Shown piece by piece: positions 2,598 through 45,631 of a stretch of DNA of 64,000 nt. A model generated the notes under the pieces. The model ran no database searches. It saw nothing but the letters and a program-made list of their open reading frames with translations, and was not told the origin of the DNA. The stretch is from contig OY821518.1 in NCBI GenBank assembly GCA_963682025.1, forward strand, positions 145,330,731-145,394,730, in the 5' to 3' direction. The stretch is from Cordilura impudica (Eukaryota; Arthropoda; Insecta; Diptera; Scathophagidae). Each line of letters begins with the position of its first letter. The stretch's first letter is position 1. A program made the position numbers and the translations under genes.

Positions 2598-3209
2598 TTT
2601 AATTATATTGGTCCAGGAAAATGATTGTCCACATAATAAATATAGTGATGGGTATAAGCTTTCCGACAGGAAAAAAGTGTTTGGAAGCAAATTGGAGAAG
2701 GGCACTGTTTTTATAATTGTATAATATCGATCCGGAATTCGCAGGACATTTAATGGCCACAAGCTCTCCCTCAATATCTCTAACACAATTTGGCATGTTC
2801 AACATATCGCACCTGTACCTCTAAAGTGAGTCAACTCAAAATTTTCAATTTTCACTTTTTGCAAGAAAACGATAAACAGTAGTCATATCTATCCACTGTA
2901 AAAATCTTACATCGATTTTTCTAGTCTTTCGCAAATAAATACAGTTGTAATCCTCTTTGTGGTATAAGAGTTGCTTCTTTAGAATCCACTAAAAACACAT
3001 ATTTTGAGTTGCACCCAAAAAACTTGTTATATTTGATGATCACTGAAAAAATCGCAAAAACAACTACTGTTGTATTCTTATTATTCGCAATTCTTTACAA
3101 TGAAACAACTGCCTTTAAAATTTATAGTACATATTAAAAAAAAAACCGTTTTTACAGGTGCAAAGTTAAAAGTAAGTCGAATATTGTTCTTGACATTCGC
3201 TATGTCTAA
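2598..3209. other. Non-coding stretch with a decayed MITE
   Basis: No gene seen. Bases about 2805-3035 resemble the MITE at 26516-26742: TATCGCAC near the left end, then GTGAGTCAACTCAAAA, and TTTTGAGTTG in inverse orientation near the right end. The remainder is AT-rich sequence without a recognisable feature. Confidence 0.4.
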
Positions 3210-4008
3210 ACAAGTAAGAAAATTATAGTCGGTCTAGCCCGACTATATGATACCCTATACCATGGTTAAGATACCCTATCTCTTCGGTCCAACTATTTGG
3301 ATATAGCAAATAAGCATAAATCAAATTTGAGTGGCATTTTTATTAATATTTTTCGCTGCAGATATGAAAAAGTTCATATCGGATACTATACTTATATAGG
3401 GACTAGGTCGAAAAATGGACCGATCATGACCATATTTGGTAAAGTCACTTATACTTTGAAAAAATATATACAAACCAAATTAGAGAAAAATCTGTGCAAT
3501 ATTTTCGTTTTTTAATAGATTTAAGTGAAGATCGGGAAGCAGCTCTGTATGGGGCCTATGACTAAGAATTTTCCTATAGGGAGTATTTTTGAACTACTGA
3601 TTAATAGATGTAATAAACACATACAAACCCAATTTGACTGAAATCTATATGATAATTTGGAACTTATGGCAATTTATGTCGATTTCATAGGGGTCATTTG
3701 TATGGGGGTAGGTCTGAATATGGACCGATTCTCACCAATTTCAACAGCGTTCATCCCATGGCCGATGGAAGCTTACATACCAAATTTCATCAAAATATAT
3801 TCATATTTGCGACCTGTAGTTTGATTACAAGCTTTACATGGACACACAGGCGGACGGACGGACGGACGAACATTGCTATTTCAATTGAAAAGTGATTCTG
3901 AGTCGATCGGTATAATTAAAGATGGGTCTAGGACGAATATTTTTGGTTGTTACAAACAGCAGCACAAAGTCATTATACCCAAACCACATAGTGGTATAAG
4001 GTATAAAA
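3210..4008 (+). repeat. RepA interspersed repeat, copy a
   Basis: Unclassified repeat of roughly 750-800 bp. The plus orientation begins ACAAGTAAGAAAATTATAG, followed by a near-palindrome (GTCGGTCTAGCCCGAC) and GATACCCTATACCATG. It ends with a (GGAC)n tract, CACAAAGTCATTATACCC and GTGGTATAAGGTATAAAA. The motif ATACCCTATACCA therefore occurs near both ends in inverted orientation. Small open frames across these repeats drift between copies, so I treat the family as non-coding. No transposase or RNA polymerase III box was recognised. Confidence 0.85.
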
Positions 4009-4257
4009 ACTGTTGCTCATTCATACTTTTTTTTATATTGGCAAAATCTTTCCGGTGGTAGCCACTTGCGACCCAATGTTTGTTTATTGGACGAACATCC
4101 CATCTTAATGTTCGTCATTTTTTCCCCATATGTTCAGAATATATTTCGCATAAATTTAGGAAGCTTAAGGCAATAAATAAATTAGACGCATCCATTTTTT
4201 TTTTTAACAATATGTCAAAATATATGATACATTTATATTTTTCGGTAACTGCACATT

Positions 4258-4608
4258 TTTTTATACCCTATACCACTATGTGGTTTGGGTATAATGACTT
4301 TGTGCTGCTGTTTGTAACTACCAAAAATATTTTACTTAGACCCATCTTTTATTATACCGATCGAATCAGAATCACTATCTGATTCGATTTAACGATGTCC
4401 GTCCGTCCGTCCGTCTGGGTGTCCATGTAAAGCTTGTAATCAAACTGCAGGTCGCAAATATTAATATATTTTGATGAAATTTGGTACATAAGCTTTTATC
4501 GGACATAGGATGAAGGCTGTTGAAATTGGTGAGAATCGGTCCATGTTCAGACCTATCCCCATACAAATGACCCCTATGAAATCGACTTAAATTGCCATAA
4601 GATCCAAA
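4258..4608 (-). repeat. RepA interspersed repeat, copy b, cut by Helitron
   Basis: Starts with TATACCCTATACCACTATG, the 3' end of the family read on the minus strand, and follows the consensus through the (GTCC)n tract to the phrase GCCATAAGATCCAAA, where the Helitron 5' terminus (TC at 4609) interrupts it. The rest of the copy is not found after the Helitron 3' end at 8169, so a deletion or rearrangement followed. Confidence 0.85.
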
Positions 4609-7600
4609 TCTAATATATATAAAAATGAGTTGGCGTGTGTTTGTGACAGCATAACTAAAGAACGGAATGACGGATTTGGCTGATTCGGTTTTAATTTTGT
4701 TCACTGTTGTCCCCGAATAGTTTGTAGACAAAAAAATTTCCATAATTTTACATATATTTTTTATATATATTTTTGCAAACAAAATCGCAATATTGATTGC
4801 CTGCTCATACTACACGAGGTTATGATACGTTTTGTGCAAAAAAAAACATATTTTGCTAAGAATTTTTAAAATTCTCATTTTTTTAAAAAAAATTTTTAAC
4901 ATCAACTTCTTATCTGAATATGAGTGAAAAAAACAAAATTGTAAGTAAAACCATTTTCCAATTATTTTCAAATGAAAAATATCCATTAAACTTCAAAATA
5001 CTTATACACTCTCAATGTTTGTAATTCATTTGAAGTTTGTATATCCTACTGTGACAGCACCTGCTAGCTACTGCACCAGCTGATGACTACTTTTATTAGA
5101 TATTTTTCAATACAAAAATATTTGCTTTTAAAGTCAGAAGTTGTTTGACGTCCGAACAAATTAATAAGTTTCGGTTATATTATAATAATGATTTTGTTTT
5201 CAATTAACTTTAATAATAAGTGAGTGAGATGCCGCCAATCAGACGTAGGAACATTGGTCGCAGAAGCCGTACGGCTACAAGCTCAAGAAATTCTCGAGTT
5301 ATTGAAAGTCCTGAACATCGGGCAAATCGGATTGAGAGGAACAGCCAACGGATATTAGAATCCCGATTAATTCAGTCACATGAAGATCGAGCTATACGAA
5401 ATGAAGATAATCGATTGAGACAGAGACGTCGCATTACATCTATTAATCGATCGGATGATAATCATCAAGAAAACAATATAGCTAGATGCGTGCAACGACA
5501 AGCTGGTGTACCGACAGCTTATTTACGTACAGCCTTCCGCTATGATTCATCTACTGATTATTCTACGGATAATAATGTTGAATCGGCTCTATGAGCATTG
5601 TATGTTCTCATTGCAAGGCTCTGAAATTTCCAAAAGAATCTCAAGGGTTATGCTGCGCAAATGGAAAGATTAAACTACCACCATTAAACCCACCACCTGA
5701 GCCACTGTATTCATTGGTTTCTGGATCAGCACCTCTTTAGAAGCATTTCCTAACCAATATACAAAAGTACAATTCTTGCTTTCAAATGACTTTGTTCGGC
5801 GCCACGAACATTGTCCGAGACAATTTCGTGCCGACATTTAAGGTAACTCATTTGCCACATGTAAATAAATTTAATTTTTCATCAGTTCACACCACCGTTG
5901 CAGAATCAAGGTCAAATTTACCATAGAGCTGGTTCGTTGTTGCCAAACGTTGATGCAGACTATCAATTTCTGCAAATATATTTTATGTGGAACTCAAACG
6001 ATGAAGTCGCTCAACGTTGCACATACAATGCCTCTACTAAACTGGAAATAGTGCAACAGTTGCAAAGTATCCTTCATGAACACAATGCATTAGTTGGGTT
6101 GTTCAAAACGGCTCTTGAACAAATGTCGTCAGACAACCACAAAATTGTTATACATTCCGATAGAAGGCCAGCTGGGGAACACGCCAGAAGATTCAATGAT
6201 GATGTTGCAATAGGTGTTGTAGGTGAAAATTTGGCTTCACGTGATATTGTTCTCCATCGTCGTAACGACCGATTACAGCGTGTGCCCTGTACTCTTTTGG
6301 CAGGGTGATGATGGCTATCATTTCACAATCAAGATGGTAAACCCATTAACCGGTGAGTACCATGAAATTTCAAAAGTTAAATTGTAATTTTGTTACCAAC
6401 AAATTACACACTTGAAATTGTAGGCGCCGAGACGAACAAAAAACTGAGTTCCATGAACTTCTACGCATTCAGATTGATGGTTCGTGAAAACGACTACAAT
6501 TACATTTTAAAATGCAATATGCTGTTGACATGTACGTGAAGATAGAAACGGAGCGGCTGACTTTCCTCAGACTCAATCTTAACCAACTCCGTTCTGAAGA
6601 CTACATACATCTTCGGGACGCTATCACCATAGATGGCAATGGAAACAATGTCGGTAGATTGCAGATTTTGCCAGCAACGTATATTGGAAGTCCGCGACAC
6701 ATGCATGAATATGCACAAGATGCGATGTCGATGTTCGCCAATACGGTCGTCCGGATCTATTTATAACATTTACATGTAATCCACAATGGGATAAAATAAA
6801 AGATCTCCTGTTTCCCGGTCAATCATCGGTACATCGACATGACATAACTGCACGAGTCTTTGGACAGAAACTAAAATCACTGATGCATTTTGTGGTGAAA
6901 CTTAGAGTGTTTGGAGAAACGTGTTGTTGGATGTATTCCGTCGAGTGGCAGAAACGAGGTTTACCCCATGCACATATTTCAGTTTGGTTAAAAGAAAAAT
7001 TAAAACCTGATGAAATTGACGATGTCATATCAGCTGAAATTCCCGACAAACATATTGCAACTGCAAAACGATCCCTCAGCAGATGTTTTTTCGGTGCAAT
7101 TGTTGGATATTGGAAATGGAAAAATTCCCATCAACGTTATGACTGCTTTAATAAAGTTACCTAATGACTTCTGCCATTTCATTGAATCAAAAGAGGAGCT
7201 AATTCATAGTGTGTTCCCCAACATTTCGCAGCATTACAGGAATCACGATTGGCTAGGAGAACGAGCAATATTAGCCGCTAAAAACAAAGACGTCGATGAG
7301 ATAAATGCAACGATTCAAATGGCCATTGAAGGACTAATAGTGTCTTACAAATCAATTGACACTGTCATGAATCAGGAGGATGTTGTGAATTATCCAACAG
7401 AATTTTTAAATTCAATCAAGTTGTCAGGTTTGCCGCTACATTATCTACAGTTGAAGGTTGGATCCGTAGTTATAATGATGCGTAATATCAATCAGCCTCG
7501 ACTTTACAATGGCGCAAGACTTACTGTCAAAAAATTTATGACAAACGTCATTGAAGGAACAATTATGAAGGGAAAGTACAAGGGGGAAGACGTACTCATC

Positions 7601-8169
7601 CCACGAATACCAATAATTCCCAATGATTTGCCATTCGATTTCAAACGCCTTCAATTTCCAGTTAGACTTGCATTTGAAATGATCATTAATAAGGCGCAGG
7701 GACAGTCTTTCAAAATTTGTGGCATCAATTTGTAGTATCCATGCTTTTCTCATGGCCAGCTCTATGTGGCATGTTCTCGAGTAGGCAAACCATCGGCGTT
7801 ATTTGTTTACGCTCCCGACAGACAAACAAAGAACGTTGTACATCTGAAAGCGTTGCAGTAATTTAAAATCTCAATTAGATTGACTTTATTAAAATAATCA
7901 TTAAAAACTTAACAAAAATAATATTTAAAGCATTTTTTTAAATAAACATACTTTTGTAACACAATTATTTTCTCAATTTAAATTAAATATTTAAATACAG
8001 AACCATCTATCCTGAAAATTATAAATTTTTAATTTACCACCTTTCAAGACAGGACGAAATTGGCCGGGTCAGCTATTGTATATATTACAGCACTTGAATA
8101 AAATGAAAAAAAAAATCTGTCTCATTACAACTACAATTCAGGGGTAGCGAAGCGCACCGGGTCAACTAG
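4609..8169 (+). mobile_element. Helitron with both termini, internally deleted
   Basis: The 5' end reads TCTAATATATATAAAAATGA, preceded by host A at 4608. The 3' end reads GTAGCGAAGCGCACCGGGTC then AACTAG, with host T at 8170. This gives the A-T insertion pattern and the TC...CTAG termini typical of Helitrons. Length is 3561 bp, well short of a full RepHel element, consistent with the internal deletion in its gene. The 3' terminal block closely resembles that of the small Helitron at 26948-27353, which suggests the two share a mobilising family. Confidence 0.9.
5228..7863 (+). pseudogene. Helitron Rep-helicase (RepHel), deleted and frameshifted
   Basis: A Helitron replication initiator-helicase gene in pieces. 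5228-5594 encodes an Arg-rich charged N-terminus (MPPIRRRNIGRRSR). 5898-6308 encodes HRAGSLLP and PAGEHARRFND, typical of the Helitron-like N region. 6500-6770 encodes VETERL-type and GSPRHMHEYAQDAM segments. 6883-7060 carries the Rep HUH motif in RGLPHAH, with the two His codons at 6967-6969 and 6973-6975. About 7050-7080 the frame jumps directly to helicase sequence (LLDIGNGK, then NKAQGQSF, then FSHGQLYVACSR), so roughly the first half of the helicase is missing. Frameshifts and stops, including TAG at 7733-7735, separate the pieces. Confidence 0.9.
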
Positions 8170-11454: not shown

Positions 11455-12181
11455 TAAGTAAGAAAATTATAGTCGGTCCAGACAACTAATTGGATATAGC
11501 AAATAAGCCTAAATCAAATTTGAGTGGCATTGTTATTAATTATTTGGCCAGCAGTTATGAGAATGTTCCTATGGGATACTATATTTATATGACGACTAGG
11601 TCCAAAAATTTACCGATCATGACTATACTAGGTAAAGTCACTTAGTTTTTGCAAAACCATATACAAACCAAATTTAAGAAAAATCTGTGCAATAATTTCG
11701 TTTTCCATAGATTTAAGTGAAGATCGGGAAGCAACTTTATATGGAGGCTATGAGTAAGAACTGCAATTGAACTACCGATTAATGGGTGTAATAAATACAC
11801 ACAAACCAAACTTGACCGAGACTCATAGATAGTTTGGATATTACGGCAATTAAGTCAACCTCATAGGGGCCATTTGTATGTGGAATAGGTCTGCACATGC
11901 ACCGGTTTTCTCCAGTTGCAATAGCGTTTGTGCAACGGCCAATAGAAGCTTATATTCCAAATTTCATAAAAATATATCTACAGTTGCGAAGCTTACTTCT
12001 ATTGCAAAGTTTACATGGACACACAGACGGACCGACGGACAAACGGAAGGACGGACGGACATACTTACATCGGTAAAACGTCACTGGGAATGATTCTGAG
12101 TCGCTCGGTATGATGAAAAATGGCTCAAATATTTTTGATAGTTATAAACACCAGCACAAACTCATATTTATAGGATATAAA
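11455..12181 (+). repeat. RepA copy d, moderately diverged
   Basis: Begins AAGTAAGAAAATTATAGTCG and keeps the family order: GCAGTTATGAGAATG, GGTAAAGTCACTTAG, GAAGATCGGGAAGCA, TCATAGGGGCCATTTG, then a (GGAC)n tract near 12030. The leading palindrome and the terminal GGTATAGGGTATA are partly lost. Confidence 0.8.
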
Positions 12182-16345: not shown

Positions 16346-17330
16346 ATGAGTGCAAATTGTCCAGAAAATATCAATTTATTTTGTTTCGTTTGTGGCAAAA
16401 AAGCTTTTTCAACAAATACTGCATTACTAACTGAACAAGTCAAGCGTGCTTTTAAACTATGTGTTGCTACAATGCTCTTAACATGTGGATTAAAGGGAAA
16501 CGCACTTCACTTTCTTTTGGTGTACCAATGATTTGGACTGATCCAGGAGAGCACAATTCCGACAACTGTTATGCTTGTGCAAACAAAATACATGGAGTAA
16601 ATCGTAAAGGCCTTTAACAAAGAGTTTACATCTTTGTTAAAAGTGCACAAACACCATTCGGATGATATACCAATTCCACCGCTTCTAAGTCCTGAAAGAG
16701 AAACTTATTTTTCTATTGTAACAACGGATCAATCGGATTCCACCTATGAACCAATGCCAGAAGCCGGCCCATAGAAATATATTCTCCCACGAATCAGTGA
16801 AGCAAAATTAAAGGAAGGTGTTCTGAATGGGCCCGATATACGGAAGCTCATGCATTAAAAAAAATTTAAAGACGCTTTAGTCAGTAATGATTACATTGCG
16901 TGGAGGGCGGTGAAGAAAGTCATACGATTTTTTTGAGAAGTGAGCGAGCACACAATTACCGCGCTACTGTGACCAAGATGTTGGAACATGTCTCTTAAAA
17001 TTCACTTCTTGCAACACAATCTCGATTACTCCAGCAAACAGCATGACGAGTGCTTCCATCAAGTGGCCATGCCCTTGTAAACGCGATATAAAGGCAAAAA
17101 GCTCGACTCGCTGGTGGCTGAAATTTGTTGGTGGTCGCAAAAGACGTACGATCTCGACAATGAAGATGAAGAAGAAGAATGTAAAATGGAAGTTTCCTCC
17201 AAGGGTAAGTCACAAAATTGAAGTTATCTGACTGATTAAAAACATTTGAATATTTTTCCAGATGAAGACAGATCCTCATCCGATTCAGAGTCTGAAAAAG
17301 TTGGCGAACCACCACGCAAGAAAGTAAAGT
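16346..17330 (+). pseudogene. Transposon-encoded protein with N-terminal CxxC, degraded
   Basis: The first frame (16346-16531) starts MSANCPENINLFCFVCGKKA, with a Cys-x2-Cys. Continuing in shifted frames are LSPERETYFSIVTTDQSD, RISEAKLKEGVLNGPDIRKL, AWRAVKKVIRFF, NMSLKIHFL, HDECFHQVAMPL and RYKGKKLDSLVAE, then an acidic tail (DNEDEEEE). I recognise this as a family found repeatedly in insect and cnidarian genomes as transposon-derived protein, but the middle part of the usual protein is absent, so an internal deletion plus several frameshifts and stops have killed it. It sits centrally between the CACTGTG ends, so it is the likely transposase of that element. Confidence 0.6.
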
Positions 17331-17649
17331 AAATTTATGCGTTAATCGATTTTTATGATCTATGTATTTATGTACTAACCTGATATTTTTAATTTTACGT
17401 GTTAATAATAATAAATATTATCGACATTCATTGAAACCTAAAATCAATATTCTTGTCAAAATGAAATACTTTTACTTAATTGTGAATAAAACCGAAACGC
17501 GTAATCTATACATATCTCTATATCTAATTTTGTGCACAGGTTATGTGACTTTACGACAAAGCAATAAGACTTGACACTTTTTCCCGCTTTGAATTTTTTA
17601 TGAATTCCCATCCCGATCACTGACCCCTACCATATGTCGCACAGTGTTA

Positions 17650-18086
17650 TTAGCCAATAAGAACATAGTTTGCGTGACGTCACACACCTAACAGGAGCAG
17701 ACAATTTTAATAATGGCAGCACGATGGCCCAATTTTTATTCTATCATACTTGGATAACGGTCGGCTCTAAAAGCCATTTCTGATATATTAGTGAAATAAT
17801 GTATAATTATTATATTTAACCCGAAGGGTTGATTTTTTTGTAAAAAGAAAATATGCATACATCATTTAGTGAAGTATTTAAAATTTATTAGGACAATATG
17901 ACATTTCAAATGGGGCCCAGAGCATAAAAGAATAACTGTACTAACAGATGGCAGAACATGACTTAACGCATTTTCAACAATTCTTCCCAAATATATGTAT
18001 GTAGATATACGAATCAATTATTAACAAATAATATTTTATGTTCAAAATTATATATTATCTCTGTTAAAAACATTTTTACCACAAAG
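17650..18086. other. Spacer before the outer Transib
   Basis: AT-rich flank between the CACTGTG element and the outer Transib. No gene, repeat or inverted structure seen. Confidence 0.4.
18082..18086. repeat. Target duplication CAAAG, left of outer Transib
   Basis: CAAAG immediately precedes the left terminus at 18087 and recurs immediately after the right terminus at 24820-24824. Transib insertions create 5-bp duplications. Confidence 0.85.
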
Positions 18087-18121
18087 CTCAGTGGGCGATT
18101 GGGCCTCGTTAGCGGCATTTA
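18087..18121. repeat. Transib-1 left inverted terminal repeat
   Basis: Matches the complement of 24785-24819 with three or four differences, including the second base of the heptamer (CTCAGTG instead of CACAGTG). Confidence 0.9.
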
Positions 18122-18282
18122 ATTAATAACTTCTAAACGAAAAAAGATATCTTCACTCGGTTTTTTTCACAGATCTTTAAAAAGTCATAGAATTTTTTAA
18201 GAAAACAAAATTTTGTTTAAATTTATTTTTTTAATTTTTTTAAATTTTTTTTTAATTTTTTTTTAATTTCAAAAATTTTTTT

Positions 18283-18440
18283 TAACTTCAATAAACAAAT
18301 TTTATAAATCAAAATTATCTTCGGAATCTTTTTAATATTTTTTTTAAATTTTTTTAAAATTTTTTTTTAATTTCAAATTTTTTTTTTTTTAACTTCAATA
18401 AACAAATTTTATAAATCAAAATTATCTTCGGAATCTTCGG
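18283..18440. repeat. Tandem duplication of about 109 bp at the Transib-1 3' end
   Basis: The segment AACTTCAATAAACAAATTTT...ATCTTCGGAATC occurs at about 18283-18330 and again at about 18392-18440, separated by T-rich sequence that is itself similar. The second copy contains the transposase stop codon (on the minus strand), so the duplication covers the last codons and 3' untranslated part. Confidence 0.75.
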
Positions 18441-20171
18441 AATCAGAATCAGGCATATCTAGATGCTTCAGTAAAAGCAAGCTCTTAACATCATCGTCCA
18501 TAATAATATTTTTTGCAGACGAAATTGAAGACCCATTTGACAATGAAGATATCAAAGGGTCAGACGAAACTAATAAAGCATTTATGATATCTTCCATTGA
18601 ATTTTTCCTGCAATTTTTTCTTTTATTGCTCTCGCGTATGTTTCGATAGTCCTTGTTCCTGGCTTCAAGAGCTTCTTCGGACATCATACCAATCGGAAGG
18701 GAAAAATGGTTTATTATATCTGCTCCATGAATTAAAATTCTGTGAACAGACGATGGCATGTAAAACCAGGAGTATGCTTTAACAAAAATTTCGGCAGTTT
18801 CCAATGCGTACGATCCGAATGCGTCCGAATTTATGTCGTATCCACAAGCCAATGCTCGTAAGACTACGCTAAATCGATATATTAAATCATAGCTTACTCC
18901 TGTTATACGAGCAGCCAAATGTGGTTGTTGGAAAAACCTCCTTGCAGTGTTTCCGCTGTTCGTGCTGTCAGTACCAGCCATTGGTATATCCACCAACAAA
19001 TGCATTTCTTCCCTTAGCTTCTGCTGAATACTTCTTTTATTTTTTCAACGACATCCTTGTCAGCACCACGAGCTTGCCACTTTTGTATTGGTATTCTATA
19101 TGCAATGTGCAAAACACACTCGAAAAACCTAATCCATGCGTGGAGACTTGATAAGCCATATTCAAATAGGTTTGCATTAATAGGAAAGCTTTTCACCAAA
19201 TTTAGATCGTTCATATTTTTGGGAGTCGCGCTACAGATTCCGCATGTTTGCGAAGCCGATTCCGATATGACACTGAACGTTTTGCCATCAAGCATGGTCA
19301 TATGAAATTGGTGATCAATTCTTAAGGTACTCACAAATTTTGGAAAAATATTTAATATTTGGCTGTTAATGTTTTGAATTTCTCTGCGAGACAAGTCTGC
19401 CGATTCTTTCTCGCAAAGTAATTTAATGGGTCGACAATATCGGGTAGAAGAAGGCCGATTGTTTTTCCATAAAACTGTCGGTCCTTTCTGCACTATCAAT
19501 GGTACCATACAAATTGAAAATAAATATTGATCTATCATGTCTCCATCGAAGTCATTAAATTTTTGCCTGTAAGTAGAATGGCCGCTGCTGCCATCACAAC
19601 CCCATTTGTAGGTAGCAGTTAATTGGGTGTTATTATTATTTTCAATATGGTTTTGAAAACTTTCTGGGTGTGCTTCAATAATCCTAGCAATCGTATGGTC
19701 TACTAAGCTTTGTAATGGTACTTCAGCGAAATGATCAGTGACCGTGATGACACTAGGATAGCATTTTTTTTTCGCACAACGCAGTTTGTCGTAGCATGGA
19801 TATATATCGGCGTTTTGCCCTTTAGCGGCTCTCTTTGACAAATTCCATGTGTACTTGGTATGTCCAACATCTACAAATAGCGCCAGTGCTTTTTCATCAG
19901 AAAATTTTGTTGGTAGACGCTGAGGGGTACTCATAGTTTTCAAAATCTTACCGCTTAACTCTTCGTCGGCGTTTACCATTGACACCACCTGTGAAGCACT
20001 ACGTTTTCCACCTTTATACAAGCTGCAGCTTGCAGCTACCAACAATGCTTCTGATGGCACATCTTCAGTAAGGCCTGCCAATTTCTTAACTTGCGTTTTT
20101 TTGCAACACTCCGAAATATCTTTTTGTGGACGTCCAATAATTTCGGAAGATGATCTTTCAATCAATACTAA
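18409..20171 (-). pseudogene. Transib-1 transposase (RAG1-like), main part
   Basis: Encodes the catalytic core of a RAG1-related DDE recombinase. Read on the minus strand: GRPQKDISECCKKTQVKKL near the start, WGCDGSSGHSTYRQ (first catalytic Asp codon 19593-19595), MLDGKTFSV (second Asp 19287-19289), zinc-binding C-x2-C in CGICSATP, NSGNTARRFF, H-x4-H in VHRILIHG, and EEALEARNKDYR (candidate Glu codon 18664-18666), then an acidic C-terminus. In RAG1 the same order holds: Asp, Asp, CxxC, HxxxxH, Glu. One frameshift near 19010-19020 separates 19014-20171 from 18409-19005. The N-terminus (24029-24200) was split off by the Transib-2 insertion, so the gene is dead. Confidence 0.92.
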
Positions 20172-20176
20172 CGGCG
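20172..20176. repeat. Target duplication CGGCG, left of inner Transib
   Basis: CGGCG immediately before the inner left terminus (20177), repeated immediately after its right terminus at 24024-24028. A GC-rich 5-bp duplication is typical of Transib. Confidence 0.95.
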
Positions 20177-20214
20177 CACTGTGGCTCAAATTTTGATTTC
20201 ATTGGCCAAAAGTC
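20177..20214. repeat. Transib-2 left terminus: heptamer, 22-bp spacer, A-rich block
   Basis: Heptamer CACTGTG at 20177-20183, 22 bases, then CCAAAAGTC at 20206-20214. The opposite end has CACAGTG at 24023-24017 (minus strand), 22 bases, then CCAAAATTC. The layout resembles a RAG 23-bp recombination signal (heptamer, 23-bp spacer, ACAAAAACC nonamer), though the nonamer match is only in its A-run. Confidence 0.85.
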
Positions 20215-21248
20215 AAATTTTTTTTTGTCATCGATTTTTAAAATTTTTACTCCTTTTTGTAGCTTATATATCCAGATTAAGGTAGCCAAAAAATTAGGTT
20301 AAACTATTGATAATTGTGGGCGTGGCATGCTGTCAAACTCAACTTTTTTTTTTAATTCAGCAAAAGGTGTTTTTTTTTTGTTTTTTATCAAAAATAAATG
20401 GTTACTACTCGCAAGCTATCATCGATATTGGCCTGCGGTCTTTTTTATAATGTTAGTAGGATTATAGTCTTTAGTTTTTGTAAGTAGTCACAGTTCTAAC
20501 GTTTGATATTAGGGGCGTTATGAAATATTTATGAAACCACTATATTTTTCTCAAATTTAAACTTTAGTGGAATAGAACTTCTAAAGGAAGTAAGGGAACA
20601 AGAAACGTATACCACCCGGAGAAAGGCGAATGTATCCTGTTTAACCCTATATATACTTTTGCACCCCCCACGAGCCCCCGGTAGAACACTTTTTTCATTT
20701 TAATGAAATTACTCTAAAAAATTACTCTAAAAAAAATTTTGTTTTTTTACTTTAGACTACGTAAAAGTAAAATAATTAAATAAAATACCTGCGAAAGGGT
20801 TTATTGGCTTTGTTTTGATCAGCAAAAAAATAAGTCATAAAATGATCACAATAGGTTCTACAGTAAACAAATGATCTCTTTCTTAATTTACCTGTTGTCA
20901 AATTTAAGGGTCAACCAAAGTCATAAACAATTTTATAAGTTTGTCAATAATCGCGGCACTAAACCACTAAAGATAAAAAACCACCCCATATTGGCGAGAA
21001 ACTAATTAGTTTTACCTGATATTGAAGTCTGGATAACAAGTGCAGTTTTGTTCAATTTAAGTACTACCTGCTATGAAATTAAAGATCAATGTGTGAATAA
21101 CATGTACCTAAAAATGTATAAAATGACGGATTCTATAAGGGATTACTCAATAATAAGTTAATACTTCAAGTGTACGGACGTATATTCGCAAGTGATAAAA
21201 AGTGATAAAAAAGTGATAACAGACGCAAATAAAAATATTAAGAAAAAT

Positions 21249-23270
21249 ATGGAGAACTTTAGTTATAAAGAACTGGCCGAAGAGTATTTTCGAAACAAAA
21301 ACCAGGAAGATGTTCTTAGTTACGTTAAAATAAAATTAAACTTAAATTCGTCTAGTACCGAAATACAAGAGCAATTATCTAATTTCGTCAAAGTACTAAA
21401 AAAACGATTGAAAGAAGTTAACTACTGTAAACAAAAGTTTTATAATAAAAGTGCAAACTGGTTAGAAGGCCAACTTAATGTTGGTGGAGAAACAGCAAAG
21501 CTAGATAAGGCTGGAAGACCACGCAAATCATTGGACAACTGCAGCGATAGATCTAAGAGGCGGAAACTTAAAAATTTTAACGAGGAAATTGGTTCTACAA
21601 ATATAAAAGAATCTTTTCTACATCAATTATGAGCACAAAACCAATTAACAAAAGTGGATATCATTGAAAAAACTTGTAATGCTAGTCCAGTGAGAACAAA
21701 GCGAATTCTTAAAAGTATACCAACTCCGAGCGATGCAAAACAGTTCACAAATGAGGAGGCATTAGCATTATTTCTGGATTTGAAATTAACAAAACACCAA
21801 TATATTCAGCTCAGATTGCGTGCGATTGAAAAAGGCTCAAATATGTATCCAGCATATCATCACATAACAGCTGCTAAAATAGACTGTTTGCCATCAAAGG
21901 ACACTATTACAATCACACCAATTTCGGCAGAAGTACAACTACAATCTTTACTTGATCACACAGCCAAACGCTTGCTACAATCAATAACAGGAACTGAGTT
22001 AAAGAAATATGGAAACACAAAGTTAATTCTATTTTGTAAATGGGGATGTGATGGTTCTTCGGGACAAAAACAATACAAACAAGTTGTATGTGAAAATATT
22101 TCGGACTCAGATATGTTCATGGTATCATTTGTACCATTGCGATTGAAAAAGATTTTGGAAGATTCGGAGCCTTCGAGTAGTACAACGCAAACAATGGATA
22201 TTTGGAAAAATGAGACACCATCTTCTACGAAATACTGCAGGCCAATCAAATTTGAATTCAAAAAAGAAAATCATGATGCCATTAACAAAGAAGTTAGTGA
22301 TATCAAGGCCCAAATAGCAACACTACAGCCATTACAATTACAGTTAGATGGGCAGCGAATTGAAGTAAGCTACCAATTAGTGCTGACAATGATAGATGGA
22401 AAAGTAGGTCAGGCTTTGACTAACACGAAGGCTGCATCCAGCTGCATTATATGCCAAGCAACATCAAGCCAATTAAACCAAGTCCCGACAAAATCATTCG
22501 ATAATACCGATGCCTTCGAATTTGGATTATCACCACTACATGCAAGAATACGACTTATGGAACACATACTAAAAATCAGTTATGATTTGGATTTCGGGCC
22601 TTCAGGATCAATAAGAAACAACGAAACCAACAAAGAGTTAAGAAGTTCAAAAAAGAAACATGTTCAAGATGAATATCGCAAATTTGGATTGATTATAGAT
22701 CAGCCAAAACAAGGGTCAGGCAATACAAATGATGGCAATACCGCAAGAAGATTCTTTTCAGATCCAGAAACAGCATCTGAAATAACAGGAGTGGATTTAA
22801 ACCTTATTTTCAGATTTAAAATAATCCTAGAAGTACTTGCGTGCAATGAAGAAATTGACTCTAGAAAATTTGGAGATTATGCTAAGGAAACTGCAAAAAT
22901 ATATACAACCAACTACCCATGGAGAAATATGTCTGCAACAGTCCACAAAATCCTTTATCATGGAGAAGATGTCATTAAATATCATTTGGTGCCACTTGGA
23001 GATCTATCAGAGGAGGCTCAGGAAAAAAGGAACAAGGATTACAGATTTTATAGACAGCACAATACTAGAAAAATGTCACGAAATTCCACAAATGAAGATC
23101 TATTTAATATATTATTGGCAACGTCAGATCCGTTCATCTCCAGTATTCGAAATCAATGGAAAGTGGAACATCGGGATTTAGATGAAGAAGCCAAAAAACT
23201 ACTAAAGAACAGAAATAGCACAGAACAAAATATGGAATATTTGCAATCAATATTTGAGTCTAATGAATAA
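21249..23270 (+). pseudogene. Transib-2 transposase (RAG1-like), one stop codon
   Basis: From ATG 21249 (MENFSYKELAEEYF) to TAA 23268-23270, 673 codons in one frame, interrupted only by TGA at 21630-21632. Basic GRPRKSLDNCSDRSKRRKL follows the N-terminal coiled segment. Core landmarks, numbering the stop as a residue: D268 in KWGCDGSSGQKQYKQ, D383 in MIDGKVGQA, C399 and C402 in CIICQATS, H566 and H571 in VHKILYHG, and candidate E592 in EEAQEKRNKDYRFY. These parallel the DDE triad and the zinc-binding CxxC and HxxxxH of RAG1. The 5' upstream in-frame extension from 21192 lacks an ATG. The protein would cut at heptamer-like ends and integrate with 5-bp duplications. With a single nonsense codon, it is the least damaged Transib gene here; related copies at another locus could be intact. 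Confidence 0.93.
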
Positions 23271-24023
23271 TAATTATAATTGCCTTTCATTGTTATTTAA
23301 GTACGAAAAACATAGTATTAGTAAAAAATAATAATAAAAAGAACCAACCATTGTTACAAATGCTATTTAAATCTATTGCAGTTTTTATTCTTAAAAGGTT
23401 TCCCACATATGAATGCAATGTTTTAATAGATAAGAAAGATTCAAAAAATAAGAACCCATATTTTCATATCAAAATTAAAAAAAAAATTAGAATCATTGCG
23501 CTAATGTTTAGCAGATTTATTTAGCTAGTGTAACAAATTAGGCAGCAAACACTAATAAATTTTTCTGTAGTAATAATAATATTCCTTGAGTGTAAGCAAA
23601 TTGCAAATTTGATAGCAAACATTTTTAATTTTTTAGTAATACTAGTTAAATTTCTAGTGAATTTTACTATTTTGTTGCGTGTAAAAATTTTTTTGAGTGT
23701 AAAAATTTTTTTGAGTGTAAGCATTAAAAAAATTTCATTATTACAAAAAATGTTTATAATAATTATTTAACTCCAAATATGACACTTTCTAATAAATAAA
23801 AATAAATAAAAAAAAACATATATCACGCTAAAAGTTAAAAAAAATCAAAAGTTAAACTTTGACCTAGAATTCCTTAAAAAGTACTCAATCAATTTAAATG
23901 AAATTCACACTGAGTCAAGATCAACTATCTATCTATCTACTAAAAAAAACAGTACTAAAATATTTTGATCGGTTCAAAAGTTACAGAATTTTGGCCAATG
24001 AAAAATGATTTTCAGCCACTGTG

Positions 24024-24028
24024 CGGCG
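24024..24028. repeat. Target duplication CGGCG, right of inner Transib
   Basis: Partner of 20172-20176. Confidence 0.95.
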
Positions 24029-24200
24029 TATCTAGCCATTCCTGGTTTTTGTTTTCAAAAAAAACCTTATTTCTTCTACAGTTTTTCCACTTTTCTACAA
24101 GCTTACTATTAGAATTTCGCAGCTTTTTGCCAATCTCGTACTGCTCCTCCTGAGTATATTTAAGGTTTTTGCGAACAGTACCAAATGCAAAGTTTTCCAT
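24029..24200 (-). pseudogene. Transib-1 transposase, N-terminal exon-like piece
   Basis: Minus-strand frame from ATG 24200 (MENFAFGTVRKNLKYTQ) ending ...NKNQEWLDTP at the Transib-2 junction. NQEWL matches the corresponding N-terminal segment of Transib-3 (NQEWLRNKL). If Transib-2 and one CGGCG are removed, the CCG codon of TSD sequence is followed in frame by LVLIERSSSEIIGRPQK at 20171 and below, so this is the missing amino terminus of the 18409-20171 gene. Confidence 0.88.
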
Positions 24201-24784
24201 GGTGAGAAACTTCTTGGTTGGATCGCTTCTTCATGCCATACTAAAAAAAGTACCCGTTTTGCTACCGACATTGTTCCTAACAAGTGCCATGATTTAAAGG
24301 TTAGCAGGTAATAGCAGTTCATATTACACATTTTGTACGCACAATGACTCATACTTCTAGCTAAAAAAAGAGTTAGACCGAATCCGTGCGAATCTTGTAA
24401 GTTCTACTCCACGAACGACAGGTGCACGCTAGTGCGGGCTAGTTGTTAATACACTTAATTACCGCTACGTTTTATGAACAACACATTTATAGACCGGTCA
24501 CAAACACTGATTTTTTATGTAATACATACCTTGAAGTTAATAAAAAGCCACACTTTTAATAAAACAAGTAAAAATTGTAAATTTACAAGGAGCTCGAAAT
24601 CAATGCGCACAACAAAGAAAAAATATTGTAAAGCACTTGCTAAAACATATTTTGTGTTTGACAGCTCACAGCTGATGATCGGCTGATCGTAGAGCTTATA
24701 AAAAACCGCCAAAAATCTAATCAAAGCATCTGTTATCGATTTGTGAAAAAAAATTAACGCTTTTTAAAATTTGAAAATTTGAAT

Positions 24785-24819
24785 TAAATGCCGCTAGCGA
24801 GGCTCAATCGCCCACTGTG
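24785..24819. repeat. Transib-1 right inverted terminal repeat
   Basis: On the minus strand starts with the exact heptamer CACAGTG, then GGCGATTGAGCCTCGCTAGC. Followed on the plus strand by the CAAAG duplication at 24820-24824. Confidence 0.92.
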
Positions 24820-24824
24820 CAAAG

Positions 24825-25960
24825 TGCAGAAAATGCTGATAACATCATACGATTTCTTATAAGTAACTAAAGGTTGTTCACGAATCCACATGCAAAAAAT
24901 ATTTGTAAGTACCGAACGGGAAGTCAACCCATATGATAATTCCACAATAGGTTAAACATGTCTACAATTAGATTTCTTTCATTATGGAACGAAGTCTTAA
25001 CGTTATCTAAAAATTTCAGTATAAATTATCCGTAAATCGCGGCTAAAGTTTTTGAAGGTTTTTTTTTTGTCGGACGCTTGTTGCATTTCTTAGTTATTGT
25101 AGTTATTTTATTGCTTGTTGTAGTTAGTGTCAATTGTACATTTGTGTCCTTTTTATTTTCACAAGTAATAAAGTTAATCTTGTTAGTTTTTAAACTTGAA
25201 ACAATTTTTTTATTAAATGTTTTCAAAGTCTTAAAATATGTTCAAGAAAAAAAAAACTATCAAGAATTTGATATGTTTCTTTGCAGATGGATGTTTAAAG
25301 TAATATGGAAAAATAGTTTATGTTTTGTCCAAATGTCCCTGAATGTCGCTACAAAGTTTTAGTTTGTTGTTAAGTTAAAGTTTTATTTGGCCAATAACCA
25401 GCTTGAAGAATATAATCTAAATAGCAAATATATATGATGCACTAGACTAAATATGGTTAAATATCTATGGAAATAGTTCAGCAAGGACCATTACTTTAAA
25501 TTCTTTGTTAGAGAAAACGAGAATTCTGCAGCAAGAAGAGCCATTATAATGAATCTTCTTTACCATTCAGCAGAATAAAGAACAAGATTTTTATTTAATT
25601 GTTATACACAAGAACATAACAATATATCAAAACAATTAAAATGAAAAAAATATTCATGTTTAAACATAACAACCTTAAAAATGTGTTTTCTAAATGGAAT
25701 TAAAATAGCACACTTTTCTTTTATTTATTTTATTTTATTATAAAAACAATAACTATGTATTATTAAAGAGAGATGGTTAAAACTACACAGTTACATACAG
25801 TCATTTTAATTTAAAAAGTTAATAATTTAATTTAATAATTAATTATTTTAATTTAATAACTAACACTAAATTAGAAAGGGAAGGAAAGTATTAAAGTATT
25901 CATAGAAGAGCGGATACACTACATACGAGTATATATGTAAGTATATTCGAATCACATCCC
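24825..25960. other. AT-rich non-coding stretch
   Basis: No gene recognised. Short frames at 25026-25362 are low-complexity translations. No inverted ends noted. Confidence 0.4.
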
Positions 25961-25964
25961 AGTT

Positions 25965-26400
25965 GGTAAAATCGTCGTAGACGACATTGTCCTTAGCGAT
26001 TCCTTTAAGACATTTTACATTTTATCAAGCACGACATTTGTCGATGAAGTTCTCTGTAACGACGATATAATGGATATTGTTGTTAACGTCCAGCTGGGAA
26101 GCAAATTACTCAGATGGTCATGTATCACATCCCGTTATGTATCACATCTATATTGTCGTGTATCAAGGTCGGTTGACGACAATATGAGCGACAACGTCTT
26201 GTATTTGTCGTCCGTCGAACTATGAGTTGTTCATATATAAGCTTTGCGTGTAAAAAAGTAAAATAACGGGACTTAATAACGGCTGCAAGACAAAACAAAA
26301 AAAACTAGAAAAATCATTATGATGTGTAAGAAATTTTCGCTAACGACAAGATAAGCGACAAAGGCCTGAAAGTTGTCATATAGTTTAATTGTTAACAGTT
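25965..26400. repeat. CGAC/GTCG-rich decayed repeat, left block
   Basis: Many spaced CGAC and GTCG words (for example GTCGTAGACGACATTGTC, GACGACAATATGAGCGACAA) in otherwise AT-rich DNA. Similar in composition to the array at 27440-27690, and probably the same decayed tandem family now separated by later insertions. Confidence 0.5.
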
Positions 26401-28880: not shown

Positions 28881-30280
28881 GCCAATTGCCATTCTTTGCT
28901 TTCTCCAATTGCCATTCTTTGCTTTCTTTCAAAAGTACTGGAAAAGATTCTACATTCTCAAATGTGTAAATATATTAAGGACAAATGTTTAATGACTGAA
29001 AAACAATCAGGATTTCGCTCAAACCACAGCTGTATTACTGCTTTGGTTTATGTTGCAGAAAATATTCGGAGTGAACTAGATTATGGAAAAATTAATTTTT
29101 TGGTGCTACTTTATCATTCTTACACAGTTGACCACTATACTTTGTGCATGAAACTTCAATATTTCTTTAAATTTTCATCAACTTCAACGCGGCTCTTACT
29201 TTTATATCTAACGGAACGAACACAATCCGTATTTTCTAATAATACTTGGACAAGTCCATTAACCCTTAATAGGGGAGTTCCAAAAAGGTCGATTCTGGGA
29301 CCATTACTTTTCTCACTATATGTGAATGATTTGCCAAAACAACTTTCTCATAGTAAAATGCATTTGTATGCGGATGATGTCCAAATATATCTGACTAGCT
29401 CAATGCAATCAATTGATGCAAATTTGATTAAGCTAAACGATGATCTTAGAAAAATCTATAATGTATGGTAATTCATAAGAAAAAAAACTACTTTCAATGA
29501 ATTTGTAAAAATTAATAACGAAAGAATAGAGATCGTGCAAGTAACGAAAAATCTCGGACAAGTCACATTAACTCGTTGGTTGGAAAAACGTACATTAAAC
29601 TTAGGTCCCTCTGGTCAACGCAGTATTTTACACCTTTAAGAGTTCGGATATTGTTGGCAAAATCATACCTTATTCCTGGTCTAATGTATGGATGTGAGCT
29701 CTTTGCACATTCTGATGCCAGTAGCAAACGTAAGATGAATGTGCTGTATAATAATATCGTTAGATATGTCTTTAGTATCAGGAAGTTTGAACATATTTCA
29801 TCTTTTACAAAAAGCCTTTACAGCATATCTTTTGAAAACTTGCTTAAGATTCGAGTACTAATATTTTTTCACAAAATTATTTATACTCAAAATCCACCTT
29901 ATCTTTACGCAAAAATTCGTTTCGCAAGATCACAAAGAGGTATGAAGATCATTCTCCCTAGGCATTAATATCTTGTATCAGAATGGCAGTTTTATACTAG
30001 TGCTATACGTCTTTGGAATATTATTCCACAAAACCAGCAACTTAACAGCAACGCAAACACTTTTAAACTATTTTTATTTAAATTTTTTGCCTGATTTTAA
30101 AATAATATTATATTGTAATAAATTAAAAATATATTAAATTAAAATATTATTATTAGTTTTAAGTATTCAAATTTTGTTAAACTTGAACATCTAACAACAA
30201 TGCTTTCCTGTACTGTAATTATAAGATTTAATCTTGTTGTACAGGAAATTATCAAATAAATAAAAATAAATATATTTTAA
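28881..30280 (+). pseudogene. LINE reverse transcriptase and 3' tail, decayed
   Basis: 28896-29471 encodes RT blocks: LSKVLEKILHSQM, EKQSGFRSNHSC, NRGVPKRSILGPLLFSLYVN and LYADDVQIYL (YADD codons 29367-29378). The first catalytic block is degraded (LLYHSYTVDHYTL lacks the usual FDTVDH Asp). 29576-29968 encodes the downstream thumb and C-terminal part, with LIPGLMYGCELFA and IRLWNIIPQNQQL just after a TAA at about 29967. It ends in an A-rich tail (CAAATAAATAAAAATAAATA) near 30278. The C-terminal part resembles 57548-57868. A CR1/L2- or jockey-related clade is likely; I cannot assign it firmly. Confidence 0.82.
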
Positions 30281-37000: not shown

Positions 37001-37679
37001 TATAGATATAGATATATGATATAGAAAATAAATAGAAACCAAATTTGAGTGACATTGTTATTAATTTTTTTGCCTTCGGATATGAAAAAGTTCCTATCGG
37101 ATGGGAACTAGGTCGAGAAGTGGACCGATCCGCACCATGTTTGGTGAAGTTACTTTTATTTTGCAAAAACATGTAAATTATATTTGAGAAAAATCTGTAC
37201 AATATTTTTTCGTTTTTTGAGAGATTTAAGTAAAGATCGGGAATCAACTTTATATGGGGGTTATGACTAAGAATTGCCCTATAGGGTTTATTTTTTAACT
37301 ACTGATTAATAGATGTAATTAACATACACAAACCCAATTTACCCGAGATCTATGAGATAATTTTGATATTATGGCAATTTAAGTCGATATCATAGGGGTA
37401 ATTTTTTTCGGAACTAGGTCTGGTCATTGACCGATTGTCACCAATTTCAACATTGGCCGATTGAAGCTCATATACTAAATTTCATCGAAATATGTTTGTA
37501 GTTGCGACCTGTAGTTTGACTACAAAGTTTACATGGACACACAGACGGACGGACGGACGGACATCGTTAAATTGAATCAGCTAGTGATTCTGATTCGATC
37601 GGTATAATAAAAGATGGGTCTACGTCTAATACTTTTGGTAATTACAAACATCAGCGCAAAGACATTATACCCTGACCAC

Positions 37680-40849: not shown

Positions 40850-41702
40850 TTGATAATAACCAATTATATAGAACAATTAACTTGGCCAAATTTATAATAA
40901 AAAATATAATAAGGTAATATTCTTTGAACGTTTCGTTATCCTTTTGTAAATAAAATTTGTGTTATTTTTAAAATAAATAAACAATACAACAACTAAATAC
41001 TGGTATTTTTCCTGCAGTATGCTTAACGTGACCAGCTTTTTTGAACCAAAAAGCATTATCGTAAAGAAAACAAGTAAGAGTGTTAAATTCGGTTGTACCC
41101 ACTGATGCTAACTCAATATTATGACCCATGCCTAAACTGAACTTTTAATTACTAATACAAATTTAAAGTTAGTTGCCGTTTTTATCAGTATTTATTACAA
41201 TTTCTAATTTATTGTTTTTACATACAAAAAAAGAATTTTTTGTTATAGAAAGAATTAACTTCTATCTAAAAAATTACATTATTTTTCTATTATTAGAGTA
41301 GAAAAAATATTAAGGTACCAAAAAGCAAAGCAAGAAATCATGCATTGTAATGACTAAAGAGCTTAAAATTTATGCGTTATTTACAAAAAGTTTAAAATTA
41401 GTTTTGTCTAAAAGTCCTATATCAGTAAAATGTTCAGATATTAAATAAGAAAAGAAATTGTTTACTATTTTTATTACAAATAATTTAAAGATATAAATGT
41501 AGATTGTTTACTTATTTAACATTTGAATATCTTCGCATGCTGAGAGGAATATATATTTGCGGACTCCGAACAATTTTAAGCATTTATATAAATATTATAT
41601 ACATTTTTTCATAGCTATCGTATTTTTACAAAAAAAAAAAAAAAAAATAAATAAAACATAATAATAAATACATATCAAAACAATTATAAGAAAATAGTGA
41701 TG
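40850..41702. other. AT-rich stretch with a short repeat start
   Basis: No gene seen. At 41069 AAACAAGTAAGAGTGTTAAA then TTCGGTTGTACCC resembles the beginning of another dipteran repeat class related in layout to RepA (ACAAGTAAG, then a TCGG..CCGA hairpin). Poly(A) at 41630-41646. Confidence 0.35.
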
Positions 41703-42440
41703 TACACTCACTTGATTAGGTTCATAATTTATTGCAAAATTATGTTCATTCCTCTTAATATATACGTTAAGAGAACGATTTATTTAAACCAAAATTGAGA
41801 AATACTAACATTATAATTAATCGTTGCTTTGATTATTTCTTCTATGTAAAAATGCAAGAAAAATATATGTAAATATTAGCTCATTTGATTAGATTCAATA
41901 AGAATAAATTCAGTTTAACAAGTAGGGGACTTTAAGCTTCAATTTGCGTGTTCAAACGTAAAAATCGACTGATGGGAACGTAAGTAATTTGGAGTTAAAA
42001 ATGCATTTTAATTTTTTGTTGAGTTTCCATGTAAAAAATGAATATTTTGACATTTTAAATAGGTATTTTTTTTTATAATTTCTTATTTTCTTCAATCGTA
42101 TTTTACAACCAATACTTATTTATTATTCCTAAACTTAATTTTGGTCAGAAAATGCCAACATTTGGCCCCTGACATTTATTTAGTCTCAATATTCACAGGG
42201 GCCAAAGGTTGTTTTTTTTTGGAGAAAGCAAATTCTTGTGAGGATTAAACTGAAAAATAACACTGAAATTCTCAACAATATCAATACCATTTGGATATAT
42301 TATATACAGAACACAACATCGATAAAATTTTAAGTAAACTTTTACTATTGATTTAAAGTGCACATATATTTTATTTAAATGTATTAATAAAAATTTATAC
42401 TAAAATTAGAAACAAATTATAATCTTTAAACTAGTATTAA

Positions 42441-44472
42441 TTAAACAATATTAGTAAAAATTTCTTCCAAATAGCTTTGATTTTCATTTTGCAGTAGTTG
42501 TTTAGCTTCTTCATCTAACTCTAATGAGGTTGATTTCCATTTTTGTCGAATACTGGACATATATGGGTCTGATGTGCACAACAAAATATTAATAAGATCT
42601 TCATTAGTACAATATCTGGAAATTTTTCTTGTATTGTGCTCGCGAAAGAATCTGTAGTCTTTGTTCCTTTTTTCTTGGGCTTCTTCTGAGAGATCTCCAA
42701 TTGGAAGCATATTGTGCTGAATTATTTGTTCCCCATGGAACAAAATTTTGTGAACTGTGGTTGGCATATGTCTCCATGAATATTTTTGGTTATAAAGGGT
42801 TGCTGTCTCATTAGCATACTGACCAAATTTTTTTGCATCTATCTTTTTGCTACATGCTATAACTTGTAATATGATTTGGAATCGTCGTATTAAATCATAA
42901 TCTACTCCAGTTATAGAAGCTGCAGTTTCTGGATCGGAAAAAAATCTCCTTGCTGTGTTTCCATCATTAGAATTTCCTTCTCCTTGCTTTGGCTGGTCAA
43001 TTATAAGGCCTATCTCATGGTATTTTTTTATTTGAATATCTTTTTTTTTTGCTTTCTTTTTTCCAAATTTTCTTTGTTGCTTCTCACTGTTTCGCCTAAC
43101 GGGCCAAATTCCAAATCGTATCCCAATTTAAGAATATGCTCCATAAAACGAATTCTAGCATGAAGAGGTGACATTCCAAATTCATATGCTTCATTAAAAC
43201 TATCGTCTTGTGTTGGTGGTTGGCTCAATTGACTTGATGTTTTTTGGCATATGGTGCAGCTTGACGATGACTTTGTTTTGGTTAAAGCTTGTGCAACTTT
43301 TCCATCAATCATTGTGAGACACATTTTAAAATTTACTTCAATGTCTTGGTCATCAAATTTAAATGTTACTGGTTGAAGTTCTTTAATTTGATCATTTATT
43401 TTTCGAACTTCTTCAACTATGACATCTTGAGTCTCCTTTTTGTAAGCAAACTTTATTGGTCTACAAAATTTTGTTGACGAGGGAATTTCATTCTTCCATA
43501 CATCTATCTCTGCAGCTCTACTAGTTGACGGCTCGGAACCAATATAAGTTTTTGTTAAACGTAATGGAATGAAAGAAATCATGAATAAATTGGCATCTGA
43601 TGAATTTTCCGCATTACATTGTTTGTATTGTTTCTGGCCAGAGGACCCATCACATCCCCATTTACAAATTAAAGTCATGCTGCAATTTTTAAGCTTCTTT
43701 AAATAGTCAGCATCAAATGTCTTTAATAATCGTTCTGCAGTATGTTCAAGAAGATCCTGTAATTTTATTTCTGCTGAACTTGAAGTTACACTAATAGCAG
43801 TTGGTGAAGGTAAGCAATCTTTTTTGGCAGAAACTATATCTCGATATGATGGAAAAATTCCACAATTTTTTTCATTGGTTCGCTTCCGCAATTCTGTATA
43901 TTGGTTTTTACCCATTTTCAAATCCAAAAATAGTGCAAATGCTTCTTCTGGAGTAAATTTATTTTCTTCAGTTGGTGGCGGCATACTTTCTAAAATCCTT
44001 TTTGTGCGTCTGGGGCTTGCTTCCACTATTTTTTCAATGATAGCAATTTTACCCTTTTTAGTTTTCGATGGTTGAATTTGATGCAGAAATGAATCCTTTA
44101 TGATGCTACAAGAAACTTCTTCATTGATATGTTTAAGCTTGCGTCTTCGTGATCTTTCACTACAATTATCAATTGGCTTTGCTGGTCGACCACCTTTTCC
44201 AGTTTCCGTGGTAGTTACTGATGGCTTTTTAAAAATAAGTTTATTTCTTAGCCATTCTTGGTTGCGTAAGTAAAACAATTTCTTGTTTCTGGAACATTGA
44301 TTGTACCGTTTTCTTAAAGTATTTTAAAAGTTTTTTATTTTTAAGTTATTTTAATTTCTTGTTTGTCGCATATTTTGAAGAATGGATTATTCATTATATG
44401 TAAAATAATGTCGTTTTTATCTTTCCGTTCAAAATATATATCAGATAGAACACTATAACTGAATTTAGCCAT
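42441..44472 (-). pseudogene. Transib-3 transposase (RAG1-like)
   Basis: Minus strand. ATG at 44472 begins MAKFSYSVLSDIYFERKDK, parallel to the Transib-2 start MENFSYKELAEEYF; a stop and frameshift lie between there and 44278. The long frame 44278-43028 has GRPAKPIDNCSERSRRRKL, KWGCDGSSGQKQYKQ (Asp codon 43649-43651), MIDGKVAQA (Asp 43304-43306), CTICQKTS and LHARIRFMEHILKLGYD. One frameshift in a poly(T) run near 43040 leads to HEIGLIIDQPKQ, NDGNTARRFF, VHKILFHG (H-x4-H) and EEAQEKRNKDYRFF (candidate Glu 42672-42674). Closely related to Transib-2. The length of the homopolymer at the frameshift makes an assembly error possible. Confidence 0.9.
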
Positions 44473-44573
44473 TGTTTAAACAATAATGAAGAAAAAAAAT
44501 GAATGCATGGATTAATATACTATTGCTCGAAGTTTCAACACGATCTTTTTTACCTCTTTGAAACATAATATAA

Positions 44574-44890
44574 CAGGTAGTTGGTTTTACCAGTTATTTC
44601 CATTGGTTTTAAATTTATTTGAAATTTTCACGTATTTAAGTTGTGTAATATTAGATGGCAATAAAATCTTTTTTACCTTTTCCAAATGAATTGCTAGATA
44701 CCACATAATTTGAGAGTTAACAGGTACTGGCAATAATATAAAAGGTACTTGGTTTTACCAGTTATTTCCATTGGTTTTAAATTTATTTGCAATTTTCACG
44801 TATTTAAGTTGTGTAACATTAGATGGCAATAAAATCTTTTTTCCTTTTCCAAATGAATTGCCAGATACCACATAATTTGAGAGTTCTATT
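44574..44890. repeat. Tandem duplication, unit about 170 bp
   Basis: A block of about 145 bp starting AGGTA(G/C)TTGGTTTTACCAG and ending ACCACATAATTTGAGAGTT occurs at about 44574-44720 and 44743-44887 with few differences (for example GTGTAATATTAG and GTGTAACATTAG). It lies upstream of the Transib-3 start codon, in its leader. Confidence 0.85.
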
Positions 44891-44899
44891 GTCATTTTT

Positions 44900-45060
44900 G
44901 TCAAAATTTTGATACACCCTTCTATGTGGACTAGGTCCAAATATGGGCCAACTTCTCCTAATTTCAACAGAATTATTTTTTGGGTCAATAAGAACTCTTG
45001 TACAAAATTTCATCAAAATATATGCATAATAGCCACTTTTACATACAAATAACTTCCCAA
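44900..45060 (+). repeat. RepA copy g, fragment
   Basis: Contains GGACTAGGTCCAAATATGGG, TTCAACAG and CAAAATTTCATCAAAATATA, in RepA order. Only the middle of the family remains. Confidence 0.5.
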
Positions 45061-45631
45061 AAAATATGACGTGTATGTGTACCGAATATCTTACCTTGGG
45101 TCAGAAAAATTGCTGTAGCTCAAAAAGTGCAGTCCCGATGCATAGACAAGTGTATATAGCAATGTAGGGGAGAGTTAGGACTACAAAATAGTAAATTAGT
45201 GTTTTGACTCAGCTAGACTCACAGGAGTTGTGCTCTATGAAGTAGGAAATTTCCGAGAAATTTGACCTTTTTTAAAAAAAAAATTTAAATTGTTCTGAAA
45301 ACAGTAGAGCTTTAAGTTTTTTACCAGTAATAGGAAATAAGTTAGGTTACAACACAAAATTTATTTCGTCCAAAAATCTTGAAACACAAAAAAGTTATGA
45401 TCATTTAAACTTTAAAAATTAACTAAAAATATCATAAATTTTCTAAATTCTGAAAAAGCCCATTTTGGACCACCCTGTTCTCAGTGAAATAGTTGAAATA
45501 GAGTTCTAATTTTTTGGCTCCCGAGGTTTACTACTGTCTACTTTCATATGAGTCTAATAACTTTAAAATCGGAGAACAAAAACCAAAAGGAGTTTTGGCC
45601 GCTATCTCAAAATATTGACCACAGTGAGCCG

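Follow-up and report, generated by a model that had tools for sequence, protein, structure and literature searches.

One Transib transposon lies inside the transposase gene of another in the window analysed here (the whole stretch of DNA, 64,000 nucleotides). We are highly confident that this arrangement arose from two successive cut-and-paste Transib insertions, in which the inner element arrived later and entered the transposase gene of the outer one. Transib is the family of cut-and-paste transposons that gave rise to RAG, the antibody gene-shuffling enzyme. The outer element (18087..24819) carries its transposase gene on the minus strand and is interrupted by the inner element (20177..24023; 3847 bp), whose transposase gene is on the plus strand. 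Both match HzTransib, in line with a preliminary description of this DNA, which had recognised two RAG1-like Transib transposons in opposed orientation.

Because the inner element sits inside the transposase gene of the outer element, the outer element is the older insertion. The preliminary description had expected relative dates for both insertions. The order, with the outer element first, is indeed fixed, but dates are not: dating by divergence was abandoned, as the identities to the nearest proteins (96% for the inner and 97% for the outer element) show no age gap.

Identity, boundaries and ends

The inner protein matched HzTransib (PDB 6pqn) in a phmmer search with an E value of 9.3e-115 over 483 residues, and the pieces of the outer protein matched it with E values of 8e-52 and 1.8e-47. 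D126, D225 and E436, the catalytic residues of HzTransib (PMC6941560), have aligned counterparts (D, D and E) in the inner as well as the outer transposase; by our own mapping, the published residue numbers exceed those of the 6pqn chain by 17. These residues are encoded at 22050-22052, 22395-22397 and 23022-23024 (plus strand) in the inner element, and at 19595-19593, 19289-19287 and 18666-18664 (minus strand) in the outer element. The 5-bp target-site duplication of Transib is likewise present in both, as CGGCG around the inner and CAAAG around the outer element. At an E value of 0.001, Pfam assigned no family to P0001 or P0121, which are close relatives of the inner and outer protein, respectively; a precomputed PF26100.1 was attached to P0001 in the protein search. 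Among the window pieces, the C-terminal part of the outer transposase hit RAG1 below the cut-off (E 0.0088), and the other Pfam hits were weak and unrelated. Rfam (gathering scores) and ARAGORN gave no matches. Seven open reading frames of at least 100 amino acids are present in 17000-26000, four of them Transib pieces and three of 101-114 amino acids. RAG-like (RAGL/ProtoRAG) transposons carry a RAG2-like gene convergent with the RAG1-like gene. Judged by length alone, none of the seven frames would be a RAG2, although a damaged RAG2-like gene may have escaped this count.

The outer element is bordered by CAAAG at 18082..18086 and at 24820..24824. Its terminal inverted repeats (18087..18146, plus strand, and 24760..24819, minus strand) start with CTCAGTG and CACAGTG, which differ by one base, and 35 of their terminal 38 bases match. 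The inner element is bordered by CGGCG at 20172..20176 and 24024..24028. Its left repeat (20177..20214, plus strand) runs from CACTGTGGCT to CCAAAAGTC and its right repeat (23986..24023, minus strand) from CACAGTGGCT to CCAAAATTC, with 30 of the terminal 38 bases matching. The ends of both families are defined from this one locus.

These boundaries were recovered by a scan that was blind to the ends given earlier. It considered pairs of positions flanking each transposase gene, and accepted those with an exact 5-bp duplication, a C at the start of both ends, at least 6 of 8 terminal bases matching and at least 19 of 30 matching. Left and right ends were sought in 17000-18409 and 24271-26000 for the outer element, and in 19500-21249 and 23270-25000 for the inner element. 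Each search returned a single pair (27/30 terminal bases for the outer, 23/30 for the inner element), identical in position and duplication to that of the preliminary description, and hence the sole solution with a duplication and inverted ends for either element. As a random control, 38-base ends were compared at 200,000 pairs of positions in the window, drawn once and from an identical seed for the two elements; one pair reached the outer value of 35 matches and one the inner value of 30.

The window contains two further Transib copies, both on the minus strand. In the third (42456-44341), the transposase is broken, and its two pieces are 54% and 66% identical to P0001; the fourth (50456-52157) is a strongly degraded remnant with stops and frameshifts. 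The same scan with larger ranges found one AT-rich pair around the third copy (41671-47393; 22/30), which lacks the heptamer, is probably due to chance and was set aside as a candidate for its ends, and it found no end pair around the fourth. Transib-like ends at 45626 (CACTGTGGTC...CCAAAACTC) and 52776 (CACTGTGGTA...ACAAAATTA) are possible ends of the third and fourth copy, respectively; searches for a left end matching the former and for a partner of the latter found neither. The score of the inner element, taken alone, is modest and close to that of the chance pair around the third copy. For its boundaries, more weight falls on the terminal sequence CAC(A/T)GTGGCT and on the restoration of the outer frame described below than on the scan score.

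Inverted Transib ends are expected to start with CAC, in a heptamer like that of recombination signals (RSS). Three of the four ends start with the heptamer CAC(A/T)GTG, the exception being the left end of the outer element. In the inner element, the heptamer is followed at both ends by a 22-bp spacer and then by CCAAAAGTC or CCAAAATTC, with an A-rich CCAAAA. At the place of the nonamer the outer ends have CATTTAATT, which is AT-rich and unlike the usual nonamer. A figure legend in PMC8355894 gives a symmetric spacing of 20-22 bp for Transib ends, and the same source describes a 12/23 asymmetry for some Transibs. The spacing in the inner element fits the symmetric pattern and not the asymmetric one.

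Lineages, target sites and genomic setting

The two elements belong to different Transib lineages. P0121, the closest among the relatives listed for the outer protein, is 37% identical to the inner protein over 630 aligned positions. Our tree comprised 54 rows, 51 of them chosen from 237 fetched proteins and three from the window; it was built without the long-branched fourth copy and without five proteins used in an earlier tree, and HzTransib was not a row. The inner element grouped with P0001-P0006 and the third copy of the window (8 rows; 100/100), inside a clade of 25 rows (100/100) that includes P0087 of Helicoverpa armigera, a relative of HzTransib (E 8.9e-131). The outer element paired with P0121 (100/100) inside a clade of 21 rows (99/97) that includes P0128 of Drosophila obscura, the sole named Drosophila protein among the outer matches listed (51%). 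The terminal repeats are also unlike each other; a local comparison of the two right ends gave no better match than CACAGTGG, the first 8 bases. Since the inner and outer elements fall in separate, well-supported clades, self-insertion is rejected, and the 'self-transposition' of the preliminary description does not apply.

Rebuilt from the flanks, the target site of the inner element reads ACGGCGT, seven bases that are palindromic around the middle base. CGNCG is described as the preferred target of Transib (PMC4735498) and is also listed for Transib elsewhere (PMC5704228). The inner CGGCG fits this motif, whereas the outer CAAAG does not. In the empty outer element (2881 bp), CGNCG occurs at four places and ACGNCGT at only one, which is the site used; in the whole window, the numbers are 43 and five. 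The match of ACGGCGT to the published preference implies that the known mechanism suffices. The outer duplication lies within CACAAAGTG, which is palindromic at the outer three bases on each side. For hopper and transib2 of Drosophila melanogaster the target motif is CCANTGG (PMC3276498), which indicates that the target motif varies among Transib families. CAAAG fits CGNCG or CCANTGG only partly.

One alternative explanation might be that the inner transposase favours Transib DNA, for instance through residual recognition of ends or shared chromatin. Four Transib copies within 64 kb, one of them within another, would be compatible with this, and same-family nesting ('autoinsertions') is described for plant LTR retrotransposons (PMC6911290). 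However, the inner and outer elements are of different lineages with unlike ends, the insertion point is within a coding region and at a motif sufficient to account for it, and this is a single case. We therefore consider targeted insertion very improbable, and favour two successive ordinary insertions. A broader proposition, that Transib copies in this genome recurrently enter older Transib DNA of other lineages, is only slightly less improbable. If it were true, nests of RAG1-family transposons would accumulate, and their members would disarm each other.

Nesting is expected in a region that holds two further Transib remnants and dispersed repeats. One family of dispersed repeats occurs at six places (3208-4010, 4258-4620, 11483-12165, 37018-37679, 46096-46895 and 49337-50091); its copies measure ~350-800 bp, are 70-92% identical and have CACTATG at or near several of their ends. 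The stretches 1-2607 and 53200-55645 share an inverted repeat in two pieces, with identities of 86% and 92%. An open reading frame at 7010-7735 (plus strand) has a Pif1 helicase 2B domain and another at 28896-29471 (plus strand) a reverse transcriptase domain; judged from these domains, they probably represent a Helitron and a remnant of a non-LTR retrotransposon, respectively.

Transposase genes and the reading frame across the insertion

The inner transposase gene (21249..23270, plus strand) has 673 codons, of which codon 128 is an in-frame TGA (21630-21632). P0001, which has 673 residues and is 96% identical to the inner protein, has a sense codon at this position. The outer gene, on the minus strand, consists of an N-terminal part (24024..24271), a middle part (19035..20174) and a C-terminal part (18412..19044) in a frame different from that of the middle part. 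By its match to P0121 (670 residues), it starts with MSVAKRV at 24271. MENFAFG, which the preliminary description took as the start, is internal and lies 24 codons downstream, with a frameshift (within 24206-24221) in between. A second frameshift is located at about 19035-19044. P0121 is 93% identical to the N-terminal, 98% to the middle and 96% to the C-terminal part. At its 3' end, the outer gene is joined by a tandem duplication of ~107 bp (1.9 copies; 18235-18437) that extends into the last codons.

In P0121 numbering, the insertion falls at codons 81-83 and disrupts the outer gene there. When the flanks are joined with one copy of CGGCG, the outer frame runs without stops to 19035. Joining them with no copy gives 32 stops, and with two copies 23. 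The single-copy join thus reads from MENFAFG through LVLIERSSS to GRPQK, as the preliminary description had claimed, but this frame ends before the C-terminus, at the frameshift near 19035-19044. That description had also proposed a comparison with an empty copy of the outer element. P0121 runs uninterrupted across the insertion site as EWLDTPLVLIE (KNQEWLDTPLVLIERSSSEIIGRPQKD), and is such an empty site at the protein level. A search of viral_contigs for DNA relatives of P0121 gave no matches; for P0001, seven stretches in viral_contigs fitted the pattern and none was confirmed.

Another alternative would be a chimera, in which mis-assembly or ectopic recombination joined two Transib copies with no transposition. 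Assembly errors are plausible in a repeat-rich region with several dispersed repeats. However, a chimera would not yield two exact 5-bp duplications at inverted ends, it would not explain why one copy of the duplication brings the outer frame back, and it disagrees with the uninterrupted P0121. We give it hardly any credence.

Both transposons are complete in the sense that their ends are intact and clean. Their genes are broken, however, by the TGA in the inner element and by two frameshifts and the insertion in the outer element, and neither copy, as sequenced, encodes a whole transposase. A 22-base stretch of inner coding sequence (21287-21308) has a 91% inverted match in outer coding sequence (24039-24060), and both encode KNQE; these are non-homologous places of the two proteins, and the match may be due to chance.

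Origin of the nest and comparison with known systems

Our preferred explanation, two successive insertions, runs as follows. The outer element integrated first, at CAAAG. Later, the inner element, of another Transib lineage, integrated in the opposite orientation at the palindromic ACGGCGT in the outer transposase gene. The sequence itself shows the ends, the duplications, the orientation, the order, the target and the damage to the outer gene. For the enzymology, previous work on Transib and RAG suggests that the inner element would have been excised elsewhere by its own DDE transposase or that of a sister copy, and that strand transfer staggered by 5 bp, with subsequent gap repair, would have left CGGCG on both sides. 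Two features are at odds with this explanation: the CTC of the outer left end departs from the CAC rule, and CAAAG fits the known motifs only in part.

This clean nested pair establishes where the elements of two Transib families end, what target site they used and which was inserted first, and it adds one more natural CGNCG target. In the literature that we searched by titles and the openings of abstracts, we found no report of Transib nested in Transib. The nest is genuine and mapped with precision, yet an ordinary event of a known kind. Transposons are commonly found nested, and the two copies here are both broken, so the present picture of Transib and RAG is unchanged.

Among known systems, the HzTransib transposon of Helicoverpa zea (six PDB entries, including 6pqn) resembles the copies described here in a transposase that is homologous over most of the solved chain, in the aligned D-D-E, in its inverted ends and in a 5-bp duplication, which is GCTCG in HzTransib (PMC1852546). 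It differs in that the copies in the window are broken and nested. P0087 of Helicoverpa armigera, of the same family and a relative of HzTransib, is 46% identical to the inner protein. Hopper and transib2 share the 5-bp duplication and a palindromic motif that reaches beyond it, whereas their CCANTGG contrasts with ACGGCGT of the inner and CACAAAGTG of the outer element (PMC3276498). The closest counterparts are P0001 for the inner and P0121 for the outer element, both from public assemblies, with 96% and 97-98% protein identity, respectively. Unlike the copies in the window, these two, compared as proteins, are full-length without stop, frameshift or insertion, which implies that both families have coding copies without interruption somewhere.
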